A DNA stretch of 64,000 nucleotides from contig NZ_FQYR01000005.1 of assembly GCF_900141815.1 (NCBI RefSeq), positions 62,001 through 126,000 of the forward strand, in the 5' to 3' direction. Below the pieces are notes generated by a model. That model was not told where the DNA came from, did no database searches, and saw only the letters and a list, made by a program, of their open reading frames with translations. The translations under genes were made by a program, and so were the position numbers. This DNA is from Rubritalea squalenifaciens DSM 18772. GTDB taxonomy: Bacteria; Verrucomicrobiota; Verrucomicrobiia; Verrucomicrobiales; Akkermansiaceae. Below are positions 42,842 through 49,111 of the stretch, piece after piece (positions within the stretch are counted from its first letter, which is position 1; each line of letters starts with the position of its first letter).

Positions 42842-42917
42842 GCCGGATTAGCTCAGTTGGTAGAGCAGTTGATTTGTAATCATCAGGTCGTCAGTTCGAG
42901 TCTGACATCCGGCTCCA
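42842..42917 (+). tRNA. tRNA-Thr (anticodon UGU)
   Basis: A 76-nt cloverleaf with encoded CCA. Acceptor stem GCCGGAT / ATCCGGC, D-arm GCTC / GAGC, anticodon loop TTTGTAA (UGU, reads ACA), T-arm GTCAG / CTGAC around TTCGAGT. The anticodon stem GTTGA / TCATC has a U-U mismatch at pair 28-42, which is unusual but tolerated in some tRNAs. The 3' 19 nt are repeated at 49048-49066: this gene is the integration site of the downstream island. Confidence 0.93.
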
Positions 42918-42962
42918 TTTGGAGAACAGAATAGCCTGCAGCTCGCTGCAGGCTCTTTTTTT
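42899..42962. repeat. Left copy of 64-bp direct repeat (attL-like)
   Basis: Starts inside the T-loop of tRNA-Thr (AGTCTGACATCC) and covers its 3' end, a 15-nt spacer and the terminator with its first seven T. It matches 49048-49111 at 63 of 64 positions; the single difference is T at 42932 against A at 49081. Confidence 0.92.
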
Positions 42963-42965
42963 TTT
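42933..42965 (+). terminator. Terminator of tRNA-Thr
   Basis: AGCCTGCAGC pairs with GCTGCAGGCT around TC, followed by C and ten T. The same hairpin is copied at 49082-49111 in the right-hand repeat. Confidence 0.92.
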
Positions 42966-43001
42966 GTGAAAAGTGACGGTTATCATCTGACAGTTTATCT
43001 G

Positions 43002-43280
43002 TTAGGTAGATGTTCTTTTTACTGTTTTTGGAGCCTTACTGGAAGGCGATTTTCTGATGCCTTCTCTAGAGGCTGCAAAAGGAGTTCTTCCATTCATGTT
43101 GCGCCCTTGGTGAGGGCGCTTCGTGTTGTAGTGAGCGAGGTAAATATCGAGATCCTTCTGCATCTCTGTGATCTCGTCATACCACTTTTCCCGGTCTTTG
43201 ATCCGGAGTTGTTCGTCCAGAATAGAGCGGTGGAAACGCTCCAGGAAGCTGTTGTGCTCTGAGATACAGGGACTTGACAT
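43002..43280 (-). pseudogene. 3' fragment of an IS3/IS481-type transposase
   Basis: About 92 codons of the C-terminal part of an rve integrase-core transposase: HNSFLERFHRSILDEQLR, then DIYLAHYNTKRPHQGRNMNG, the typical end of IS481/IS3 transposases with the last catalytic Glu in FLERFHR. The N-terminal DNA-binding part and first two catalytic Asp residues are absent; upstream sequence is unrelated and AT-rich. It therefore cannot be active. It lies 40 bp inside the left end of the island, where insertions and deletions are expected. Confidence 0.8.
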
Positions 43281-43612
43281 TCGTTGAGCTGTTCGGTTAA
43301 AAGTATATTGTCGTATAATAGATTAATCAGATTTTCTATTGGTTGGGTTACGATTGAGGTATAGTCCCGCAGTCTGTAACCGCGTTTTTCCATGAGCATT
43401 CAATGAGGTTGCCAGTGTGAACTAGTAATTGATTCTAACAAAACCATATAAGAAAAATAATCATAAACATCCAAGTATGTCTGTATATCTACTAGCGTGA
43501 ACGTGCATCTAAGGTTGTGAGTGGACACGGAGGGTCACTAATCCGCGCTGCTCAGTTAGAGCTGTCGTTTAATCTTTCTCCCCCCCCCTAAAAATAACAG
43601 AAAGTAAAATCC
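43281..43612. other. AT-rich spacer with a nine-C tract before the amidohydrolase
   Basis: No gene is evident in these 332 bp. The stretch is AT-rich and ends with a run of nine C (43580-43588), 24 bp before the amidohydrolase ATG. Such a tract between promoter and start codon could change length by slippage and alter expression; this is inference. No clear promoter is recognised. Confidence 0.4.
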
Positions 43613-45034
43613 ATGAATAAAGCAATTAACGCGGTTCTGTCGTGCATTGGCATTGCTGCGACTATCTCAAGTGGCTTCGCCCACGAAAACCACTCTATGG
43701 CGCCAACTGGAAAAATCGTACATGGAAATCATTATGGCCCGGCTGTACGATATGAGCATGTCGTGATTCGAGGAGCACAGATCTTTAACGGTCATGAGCA
43801 AGAACTCCTGAAGGCGGACGTTCTAATCTCGGGACAGCTGATAGCTAAGATAGGTCCAAGCTTGAAAGTTCCAGAAGGCTGTTTTGAAATCAAGGCAGAT
43901 GGTTACACGCTCATTCCTGGTCTGATCGACGCTCACTGGCACGGAGTCTATGCGACTGCGACAATTCCTCAACTCATGACAACTAATGAGGGCTACTGGA
44001 ATCTTCTCACCTCAGTCGCGCAGCGTGATACACTCTACCGAGGCTTCACGACGGTACGTGATGCTGCTGGGCCGATGTTTGATATTGCTCGCGCCACCAA
44101 TGAAGGGTTGATCATCGGGCCGCGGGTGTTCCCGTCCGGACCTGCCATTTCACAAACGTCGGGGCATATGGATTTCCGCATGACCCGAGATCTTCCTACA
44201 GCTACAGGCCACTTGCATTCGTTCGAGAGAGAAAATATGTTCTATATCGCGGATGGAGTACCAGAAGTCATCAAACGTACTCGAGAAAACCTAATGCAGG
44301 GTGCTACGCAGATCAAGATGATGGCCGGTGGGGGGGTGACCTCGTCCTACGATCCTATCCATACGAAGCAATTTACGCTGGATGAACTGAAGGCATCTGT
44401 CGAAGTTGCTAAAAACTGGGGAACCTATGTACACACCCATGCTATCAATGATGAAGCTGTAAATCACTCGATTGATGCGGGTGTCGCATGCGTTGAGCAC
44501 GGCCACATGGCCACCTTGGATACTCTCAAGCGTCTGAAGAAAGAAGGCGTTTGGCTCAGTGTGCAGCCCTTCCTCGACGACGAAGATGCGCCAGCTCTGA
44601 ATGATTTTCAGAAAGCCAAATACAAGTTTGTCACCGATGGCACGGATTTCGTTTATACGAACGGAAAGAAGTTGGGCATTAAGTTCGCTTTCGGCACAGA
44701 TACACTCTTCAGTGCTGATCTGGCCAAACGACAGGGAGCTCAGTTGGCAAAGTTGAAAAAATGGTTCACACCGTTCGAGGCCTTGAAAATGGCAACCTAC
44801 GACAATGCCCAATTATTGAAACTTTCAGGTAAGCTTACACCATACCCATTAGGGCCTCTCGGAGTAATCGAGGAAGGAGCTTACGCTGACATGATTCTTG
44901 TCCATGGTAATCCACTCGAGAATCTGGACCTCGTGAGTGATCCAGACAAAAACTTTGACCTAATCATGAAAGACGGCGTGATCTACAAGTACACAGTTAA
45001 AAATACTGACGCTATAAACAGTGACTCTCCTTGA
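43613..45034 (+). CDS. Exported metal-dependent amidohydrolase
   Basis: A 473-residue protein with a signal peptide (ending about GFAHEN). It has the amidohydrolase-superfamily layout: a small beta domain (VVIRGAQIFNG), PGLIDAHWHG with ligands H108 and H110, K235 in QIKMMAGGG as likely carboxylated Lys, HTHA and EHGHM for further His ligands, and FGTDTL for the catalytic Asp. It most resembles the imidazolonepropionase/Xaa-Pro-dipeptidase branch, acting on cyclic amides or dipeptides; the substrate is not known. It lies 58 bp before the DUF3299-NicO gene on the island and is likely co-transcribed. Confidence 0.85.
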   Translation: MNKAINAVLSCIGIAATISSGFAHENHSMAPTGKIVHGNHYGPAVRYEHVVIRGAQIFNGHEQELLKADVLISGQLIAKIGPSLKVPEGCFEIKADGYTLIPGLIDAHWHGVYATATIPQLMTTNEGYWNLLTSVAQRDTLYRGFTTVRDAAGPMFDIARATNEGLIIGPRVFPSGPAISQTSGHMDFRMTRDLPTATGHLHSFERENMFYIADGVPEVIKRTRENLMQGATQIKMMAGGGVTSSYDPIHTKQFTLDELKASVEVAKNWGTYVHTHAINDEAVNHSIDAGVACVEHGHMATLDTLKRLKKEGVWLSVQPFLDDEDAPALNDFQKAKYKFVTDGTDFVYTNGKKLGIKFAFGTDTLFSADLAKRQGAQLAKLKKWFTPFEALKMATYDNAQLLKLSGKLTPYPLGPLGVIEEGAYADMILVHGNPLENLDLVSDPDKNFDLIMKDGVIYKYTVKNTDAINSDSP

Positions 45035-47984: not shown

Positions 47985-48222
47985 TCGTTTCGGGGATGGC
48001 TGCATGTTGATCACAGGAATGCAGGTTTCATGCGCTAACATACCCTATGTAGAATACAGAGAGGCCTTAGCTTTCGTCTCTGAGATGATGTTGCATCTCT
48101 AGAAGAGTAGGGCTAACAGATGTTAAGATAGGGTCTTCCAGTGGAATACTGTAGTGCTTGTTTTCACTGGCTGATCTTGACCTATTCGTGAGCTAAGCAA
48201 GAAAGTAGAGAATTGACTAAGT

Positions 48223-48705
48223 ATGAAATACTATAAGTTAGTGCTGTTACTGGCACTGTTATTCTGGAGTGGTATGTTGGATGTGTCATCCGCGGATGAT
48301 CGTATAGTCAACAGTAACAGCAGTGTTGAGGTGTTCGAGGGAATCCCATGCCATTGCTGCGAGTCAGAGAAAGTAGCCCAAGAACTTGGCAAGGATAATA
48401 TCGTGGTCATTGATCGGAGTGGCTTTTACAGCCCTTCGTACAAGCCCACTTCACAACTGTTGGATGTACTTGTTTCATTGAAGCTCCAAAAGGCCAGCCG
48501 CAGTATATTTAATCGTCACGGCTTCCATGCAGATTACCTGATCCAATGGGGCAAAGGTGACAAGATGGTGAAGGTATTTGTCAGTCTCAAGAATAGAGTG
48601 ATAAGGACTACTACTAAATCAGGCTCTGTTCTGTCTTCAATAAGTAAAGCGGATGCTTCGAAATTGGCAAAAGCTCTTGCCCTATATGATCAGAGTCGAC
48701 CTTAA
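48223..48705 (+). CDS. Small exported Cys-rich protein of unknown function
   Basis: A 160-residue protein with a signal peptide (MKYYKLVLLLALLFWSG, cleavage near SSADD). The mature N-terminus has VEVFEGIPCHCCESEKVA, with a C-x-C-C cluster next to His, which could bind a metal or form disulfides. The rest is Lys-rich with alternating strands and helices (KMVKVFVSLKNRVIRTTTK). I do not recognise a family. It lies 240 bp behind the PEP-CTERM gene on the island and is followed by a terminator at 48764. Confidence 0.7.
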   Translation: MKYYKLVLLLALLFWSGMLDVSSADDRIVNSNSSVEVFEGIPCHCCESEKVAQELGKDNIVVIDRSGFYSPSYKPTSQLLDVLVSLKLQKASRSIFNRHGFHADYLIQWGKGDKMVKVFVSLKNRVIRTTTKSGSVLSSISKADASKLAKALALYDQSRP

Positions 48706-48763
48706 TTTTGGTGGCGGGTTGCATTGAGTAGTCTGCCGTAGCTGATATTCCAGCACAACCATG

Positions 48764-48792
48764 ACTGCACCTCTGGGGGGAGGTGCAGTTTT
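48764..48792 (+). terminator. Rho-independent terminator of the Cys-rich protein gene
   Basis: ACTGCACCTC pairs with GAGGTGCAGT around a TG-rich 6-nt loop, followed by TTTT. It lies about 60 bp after the stop codon. The rest of 48793-49047 holds no recognisable gene. Confidence 0.8.
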
Positions 48793-49047
48793 CCCTGGAA
48801 GCGGTGGAAGACATCGGTTGATTACTCGAATATGTCTATGATTATTACTTAATAAACTGAATTCTGAGTGGGCCTAGATCACATGAATTTGGGCGCGGCA
48901 TAGTCAGATACGCAATATTCCCACCTTCAGCTAGGGAGGAAGAATCGACGGGGAATATAATTCAGAGAGTGAACGTGTAGACGTAAAACTAGGACACAGT
49001 CCTCCTTATCGTATTCCGAGAATCCTTTTATTTTAGGATATAAGTGT

Positions 49048-49111
49048 AGTCTGACATCCGGCTCCATTTGGAGAACAGAAAAGCCTGCAGCTCGCTGCAG
49101 GCTCTTTTTTT
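49048..49111. repeat. Right copy of 64-bp direct repeat (attR-like tRNA-Thr remnant)
   Basis: Carries the last 19 nt of tRNA-Thr (49048-49066), the 15-nt spacer and the terminator hairpin (49082-49111), 63 of 64 identical to 42899-42962. It lacks the rest of the tRNA, so it is not a second tRNA gene. It marks the right end of the island. Confidence 0.9.

Follow-up and report, generated by a model that had tools for sequence, protein, structure and literature searches.

Integration into transfer RNA (tRNA) genes is divided by sublocation into that at the anticodon arm and that at the T-arm. An island of the Islander type, as outlined in the description of that resource (PMC4383910), consists of a restored tRNA gene, a displaced 3′ fragment of the same tRNA downstream in the same orientation, and the island between them; an integrase gene is required, and tyrosine integrases are given there as the only integrases known to target tRNA genes. 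A cis-mobilizable element (CIME), in the terms in which PMC5704250 introduces it, is derived from an integrative and conjugative element (ICE) or an integrative and mobilizable element (IME), keeps its attL and attR ends (left and right attachment sites), has no integration and transfer genes, and can be moved in cis once a helper has accreted. Additive flexible islands are gene blocks marked by tRNA-end repeats; for those with repeated tRNA-Lys ends, PMC10872708 gives a 20-bp tRNA repeat whose number varies at a single tRNA. Tycheposons, according to second-hand descriptions, are tRNA-associated cargo elements, and those of the Methylophilaceae are described with a border tRNA-Met and a tyrosine recombinase (xerD). 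The locus considered here lies in a stretch of 64,000 nucleotides of Rubritalea squalenifaciens DSM 18772 (contig NZ_FQYR01000005.1, positions 62,001 to 126,000; hereafter the window), in which a 6.1-kb block downstream of the tRNA-Thr(UGU) gene is bounded by two copies of the end of that gene. This block, the Thr island, is very probably a genomic island integrated site-specifically at tRNA-Thr, most likely a decayed, integrase-less and CIME-like one.

The Thr island has the restored tRNA, the displaced fragment and the intervening genes of the Islander layout. This is in contrast to the integrase gene that Islander requires, since no tyrosine integrase gene was found in the island; it therefore does not qualify as an Islander island, although it works like one. 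As in a CIME, integration and transfer genes are absent from the open reading frames (ORFs) and the block tested; compared with the CIMEs outlined in PMC5704250, no sign of an ICE or IME ancestor and no tandem helper element was seen. Unlike the tRNA-Lys repeats of PMC10872708, the repeated unit here is a 64-bp tRNA-plus-terminator block, with one island per tRNA at several tRNAs, and unlike the Methylophilaceae tycheposons as described, no recombinase was found. The kind of element is a known one, and none of the top-ranked titles in the literature names this island. What is notable is the occupied tRNA genes: one genome with at least five tRNA-bounded islands, of which three are small and without a found integrase, two of these three carrying diverged versions of one cassette. 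The locus is also a precisely bounded example of the carriage of a small, probably metal-handling cassette in a bacterium of Haloferula's family.

The tRNA-Thr gene and its duplicated end

An earlier note on this DNA had reported that a 64-bp segment with one mismatch flanks the 6.1-kb block, with the left copy completing the tRNA and the right copy being a displaced 3′ remnant, and both statements are borne out (Table 1). The copies are 63/64 identical, lie 6149 bp apart from start to start, and constitute the sole repeat of at least 25 nt, direct or inverted, detected in the window with 14-nt exact seeds. Searched against the strain's own genome (4,322,488 bases in 17 contigs, 96.7% complete), the 64-mer gives five matches; the two window copies have expectation values (E) of 3e-27 and 5e-26, and the remaining three are at chance level (best E 0.24). 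Occurrence of the repeat at many loci, which the earlier note had named as evidence against a recent integration, is contradicted by the two genome copies above chance level.

ARAGORN detects one tRNA in the window, which is the single Thr(TGT) gene among the 40 tRNAs in the genome stretches scanned. The left copy is composed of the last 19 nt of this tRNA followed by 45 nt that include the terminator, and the right copy lacks nt 1-57. Inspection of the sequence places the start of the block at nt 58, in the T-loop, and its end in the T-run of the terminator, and reveals nothing like the tRNA-Thr 5′ part upstream of the right copy. An intact tRNA is thus accompanied by a displaced cognate 3′ fragment on the same strand, downstream, and both att-like sites are kept. 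The segment 42918-42975, which contains the terminator, folds with -19.7 kcal/mol (z -2.2).

We also note that the lone mismatch of the repeat (42932 versus 49081) interrupts a minus-strand T-run in the left copy. To judge from its letters, the terminator of the right copy could still work two-way and serve the converging cold-shock gene.

Table 1. The tRNA-Thr locus (positions in the window) and three further tRNA islands of the genome (positions in contigs C2, C3 and C4).
Feature	Position	Strand	Basis or remark
tRNA-Thr(UGU), restored; last 19 nt in left repeat	42842..42917	+	ARAGORN; Rfam tRNA 68.9 bits
Left 64-bp copy (attL-like): tRNA nt 58-76, spacer, intrinsic terminator	42899..42962	+	Repeat searches
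tRNA-Thr intrinsic terminator (hairpin 42934-42953 and T-run)	42934..42965	+	Sequence; fold
Island interior, 6,085 bp, G+C 0.465, ~70% coding	42963..49047	.	Composition
IS481/IS3-type transposase C-terminal fragment, 92 aa	43002..43280	-	Pfam rve_3 E 7e-10; NCBIfam IS481 transposase E 7e-13
Secreted-type amidohydrolase (Xaa-Pro dipeptidase / carboxypeptidase-like metallohydrolase), 473 aa	43613..45034	+	PF01979 E 6e-37
DUF3299-NicO fusion, 521 aa (putative metal transporter)	45093..46658	+	PF11736 E 1e-32 at 34-220; PF03824 E 4e-17 at 275-381
Possible IS256/Mutator transposase N-terminal fragment	46743..46976	+	PF00872 E 0.035, below cut-off: weak
PEP-CTERM-type secreted protein, 252 aa	47226..47984	+	PF07589 E 8e-4, just below cut-off; TIGR02595 24 bits, cut-off 16
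Secreted-type protein with CxCC motif, 160 aa	48223..48705	+	No family
Right 64-bp copy (attR-like): displaced tRNA-Thr 3′ end and terminator	49048..49111	+	Repeat searches
Flanking cold-shock gene, outside the island	49191..49433	-	PF00313 E 3e-28
tRNA-Phe island, 5.5 kb	C4:557694-563407		Displaced copy nt 32 to 3′ end and terminator; no integrase found
tRNA-Arg(ccg) island, 3.0 kb, G+C 37.5%	C2:1097586-1100830		No integrase found
tRNA-Met island, 20.7 kb	C3:99548-120498		420-aa integrase ~94 bp from displaced copy

Interior of the island

The interior has a lower G+C content than any of 184 overlapping, equally long segments taken from the rest of the window (minimum 0.496, mean 0.520). The amidohydrolase matches NCBIfam model NF051886 with E 9e-58, which is below the cut-off of that model, and PDB entry 3mkv with E 2e-53; its nearest PDB structures are metallo-amidohydrolases of the prolidase/carboxypeptidase type. 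The 160-aa protein with the CxCC motif belongs to no known family in the profile searches (Pfam, NCBIfam and PHROGs among them), but 5 of the 97 other genomes searched contain weak relatives of it (E 1e-9 to 9e-5), and its own genome contains a weak second copy.

The cargo had been described in the earlier note as a metal transporter fusion, an amidohydrolase and a PEP-CTERM protein, unlike that of a phage. These calls agree with the profile matches, the transporter as a putative one. Among the five island ORFs, the transposase fragment alone matches PHROGs, two att patterns give 0 exact matches in viral contigs, and no viral relative of the amidohydrolase was confirmed; a phage origin was rejected on these results.

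No integrase was found among the tested ORFs of the island with Pfam, NCBIfam and PHROGs, serine recombinases not having been searched for, and tblastn over the whole block with the five recombinases of the genome and one plasmid integrase gives nothing (best E 0.22). As for conjugation or mobilization remnants, Pfam and NCBIfam recognise none in the tested ORFs, where transposase fragments are the only debris. The NCBIfam match of the IS481-type fragment spans profile positions 227-282 of 284 and, being that of a fragment, stays below the cut-off, and the IS256/Mutator match came from a translation that reads through one stop. One clear and one weak transposase fragment within the block could suggest that an insertion sequence (IS) of the IS481 or IS256 type captured the block and brought it here. 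This is extremely unlikely, as each of the two fragments is truncated and the rest of the genome has no DNA match to either. Furthermore, transposition produces short target duplications, and a 64-bp copy of a tRNA 3′ end is not expected from it.

Other occupied tRNA genes

The earlier note had recognised in the Thr locus the geometry of integration at a tRNA T-arm. This view is upheld by the T-loop break, by the orientation, by the low G+C content and by the patchy occurrence of the cassette, and its chief support is a like layout at five more tRNA genes (one tentative), three of which have an adjoining integrase. These were found by comparing each of the 40 tRNAs, with up to 100 nt downstream, with stretches of the genome rather than the whole of it, namely up to 20 kb downstream of tRNA genes (shorter at contig ends) and some further stretches. 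Forty is also the whole-genome count of full tRNA matches over the cut-off, with one further fragment listed.

Besides Thr, a displaced 3′ part with terminator is present for Phe (from nt 32, 87 bp, 97.7%), Arg-ccg (from nt 27, 102 bp, 88%), Met (from nt 27, 99 bp, 98%) and Tyr (from nt 30, 108 bp, 92%, with a contig break between tRNA and copy). A further, tentative one is that of Ser (from nt 57-62, C4:400805-400908). The Ser copy resembles Ser(gga) in its tRNA part and Ser(gct) in its terminator; the island is held as tentative because the copy mixes two Ser genes and would sit 34 kb from Ser(gga). In the scan, 11 rows extend over the 3′ end of a tRNA: five of these belong to Thr, Phe, Arg, Met and Tyr; another three, those of Ser gga, gct and tga, converge on C4:400805-400908 and are counted once; a Val row matching the Tyr copy and another matching a YrlA array (see below) were set aside; and the remaining row is a perfect match of 20 bp, located 160 bp downstream of Ser(gct) itself. 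Where a displaced copy shares a contig with its tRNA, it lies on the strand of the tRNA and downstream of it; of these two features the strand is informative and the order less so, because mostly downstream stretches were searched. The Tyr pair, an intact tRNA and its displaced 3′ part, is split over contigs C8 and C3 (C3:20319-20425 and C8:6739-6824), consistent with a contig break within the island. The genome has at least five, probably six, occupied tRNA genes.

At Met, Tyr and Ser a tyrosine integrase ORF is situated near the displaced copy, at distances of ~94, ~110 and ~405 bp, respectively. At E 0.01 the genome has five PF00589 matches: the Met, Tyr and Ser integrases, of which that of Met falls below the Pfam cut-off, and two Xer-like proteins, which score just under the cut-offs of the XerC/XerD equivalogs and just over those of broader Xer models. 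As these account for all five, no recognisable tyrosine integrase is left for Thr, Phe and Arg, and tblastn with the queries named above finds nothing in the Phe or Arg islands. One genome thus has three small cargo-only islands, of 6.1 kb at Thr, 5.5 kb at Phe and 3.0 kb at Arg. The absence of a detected integrase from the Thr island, its transposase fragments and the absence of a detected unassigned tyrosine integrase elsewhere in the genome together suggest that it is most likely decayed and stranded.

In the Phe island a DUF3299-NicO fusion is accompanied by a 145-aa protein and by two amidohydrolase genes, one of which is split into two overlapping frames. Three genes of the Arg island match the PADLOC models Hp1, Hp2 and Hp3 (E 5e-59, 5e-20 and 2e-8) and nothing in Pfam or NCBIfam. 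We also note that, by eye, genes of the Met island resemble restriction-modification and defence genes, and that at Tyr a 440-aa integrase lies near the displaced copy, with copper/silver efflux-like genes (by eye) on the far side.

The Thr island might instead be a cargo-only mini-element that never possessed an integrase and owed its movement in trans to a helper, a phage or island whose integrase has the same target tRNA. We regard this as unlikely. The compactness of the three islands without a detected integrase, compared with the 20.7 kb of the Met island, the one integrase island of clear size, would suit such an element, as would the cassette kind shared by two of them and the PADLOC-listed trio in the third. 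The distance from the last gene to the displaced copy (342 bp in Thr, 324 bp in Phe and 100 bp in Arg) is moreover too small for an integrase there. However, no helper integrase for Thr, Phe or Arg was detected in the own genome, the ends of the three islands share no sequence, with Thr and Phe matching inside the cassette only, the transposase debris suits decay, and the repeat patterns are not matched exactly in viral contigs. A wider proposal, in our judgement a rather unlikely one, would place the islands at Thr, Phe and Arg in one class of compact elements that carry cargo only. Each member would end in a tRNA 3′ part and terminator, would move by integrases borrowed in trans from phages or larger islands, and would gain small, useful cassettes time and again (metal handling twice, a defence-type trio once). 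Should these islands prove able to move in trans, many small ones would escape programs that require an integrase in order to call an island.

Distribution and possible role of the cassette

At E 1e-20 the DUF3299-NicO fusion has exactly two matches in the own genome, one each in the Thr and Phe islands. The fusions of the two islands are 61% identical and the amidohydrolases 39-41%, which rules out recent copying between them. The divergence of the Thr cassette from that of Haloferula rosea at the protein level (84% identity for the amidohydrolase, 64% for the fusion) likewise rules out a recent transfer from Haloferula. With the own genome included in both counts, the amidohydrolase occurs at E 1e-150 in 2 of 386 genomes of the order and the full-length fusion in 3 of 98. 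None of the 11 congeners (G001-G011) has the full fusion, G005 and G010 having the DUF3299 part only (38% identical); the sharing of the island's genes by close relatives, which the earlier note had named as evidence against a recent integration, is not what the congeners display.

DUF3299 and NicO domains adjoin the amidohydrolase in H. rosea, in genome G055 and in the Phe-island copy on contig C4. No tRNA lies in the 20-kb cassette stretch of H. rosea or in the stretch of G055, which shows that the cassette has no general tie to tRNA genes; two of the four loci seen are tRNA-bounded, both in the own genome. On plasmids of Vibrio cyclitrophicus and Ruegeria conchae the amidohydrolase stands beside DUF3299, with no NicO listed in an incomplete gene table. 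The V. cyclitrophicus plasmid (NZ_AP025482.1) has two amidohydrolase genes (one annotated in two pieces), DUF3299 and an IS3 transposase, and a tyrosine integrase lies ~6 kb from these cassette genes.

NicO (PF03824) is a nickel-transport family. The DUF3299 family includes zrgE, which in the Zur-regulon table of PMC9817125 is ~76-fold up in zinc-starved Vibrio parahaemolyticus. The cassette is like the zrg zinc system in having a DUF3299 protein, which in Vibrio is induced under zinc deficiency; it differs in that the zrg system, as tabulated there, pairs DUF3299 with an ABC transporter, whereas the DUF3299 of the island forms part of a fusion with a NicO permease and is encoded after an amidohydrolase. 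By analogy, the likeliest reading of the cassette is metal acquisition or metal homeostasis, to which we assign neither a metal nor a direction. A cobalamin riboswitch suspected by eye in the amidohydrolase leader was rejected, as Rfam lists nothing there; in the cassette stretches of H. rosea, G055 and the own tRNA-Phe locus, Rfam gives tRNA alone above cut-off.

The tRNA-Thr locus in relatives and the origin of the island

The congeners are distant: the flanking histidine kinase, found in 10 of 11 at E 1e-60, is 39-60% identical over the matched parts. A tRNA-Thr(TGT) locus is present in 10 of them, and in the stretches seen (3.7-19.5 kb) the histidine kinase is beside it only in G005 and the cold-shock gene is near it in none of the 10. 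Over the 45 nt that follow tRNA-Thr, 8-21 positions match the window, ungapped, in 12 of the 14 congener copies compared (two further G004 copies are not counted), while the two window copies agree at 44 of 45. This indicates that the terminator is not conserved between species, and because neither it nor the cold-shock neighbour is kept in the congeners, these genomes do not lend themselves to the empty-site comparison suggested in the earlier note. Of the 76 other genomes that gave a match, 29 were covered with 41 tRNA-Thr loci, and in the stretches seen around these, displaced 3′ ends occur solely as complete tandem tRNAs (G005, G010 and G024). The 435-aa protein of the right flank has relatives in 6 of 57 other genomes.

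In the reading that we favour, a site-specific recombination in the 3′ part of the single-copy tRNA-Thr(UGU) gene would have brought the island in. The element would have supplied its own tRNA 3′ end and terminator, restoring a working tRNA on the left, and the original 3′ end and terminator of the host would have been displaced 6.1 kb to the right. A tyrosine integrase, the presumed agent, may later have been lost, leaving a stranded island that was probably kept for its cargo, perhaps the metal-handling cassette of a metallo-amidohydrolase and a DUF3299-NicO permease fusion. The one pointer to a recent date for the insertion is the 63/64 identity of the copies.

Several observations weigh against this reading. 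No integrase, excisionase, phage or conjugation gene was recognised among the tested ORFs of the island. No empty site was seen, as no same-species genome was found and the context of tRNA-Thr in the congeners is unlike. None of the 29 relatives has such a tRNA-Thr island in the stretch seen, which for 19 of them is ~1.5 kb on each side or less. The 5′ half of the T-loop is not common to both sides (GTGTAGT in the element, TTCGAGT on the other side), so the crossover would have taken place at or beyond nt 58. The repeated block holds 45 nt of a terminator that differs in every congener copy compared; its presence in both copies points to an element from the same species or a very close one, or to duplication of the block in place.

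The last option, together with the tandem tRNA-Thr copies in relatives, belongs to a different history, in which a unit of tRNA-Thr and terminator was duplicated in tandem and unrelated DNA was then inserted, removing the 5′ part of the second copy. It easily accounts for the species-specific terminator in both copies, and G005, G010 and G024 have tandem tRNA-Thr genes, both copies in G024 with similar terminators. Because such genes exist in relatives, we retain this history at low weight, although it is very unlikely. The Thr copy is broken off within the T-loop, and for the displaced copies of Phe, Arg, Met, Tyr and Ser the starting point is either the anticodon arm or a site at or slightly before the T-arm; an integrase lies near three of these other copies; and no trace of a tRNA 5′ part precedes the right copy. 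These features argue for site-specific integration at tRNA-Thr.

Further observations on the genome

An element of 88-94 bp, 95-99% identical between copies, occurs within ~300 nt downstream of tRNA-Phe, Val(gac), Gln and Ser(gct), and may, as a guess, be a short dispersed repeat resembling repetitive extragenic palindromic (REP) sequences or miniature inverted-repeat transposable elements (MITEs). It was considered as a common island end and rejected, as it is not found in the Thr island.

A supposed array of tRNA fragments at C4:160 kb proved to be YrlA Y-RNA-like genes. This array (stretch L161:3375-4056) comprises five tandem matches, two of them above the gathering score, and is flanked by a 549-aa Ro60-like ORF on one side and by RtcB-like and RtcA-like ORFs on the other, all named by eye.

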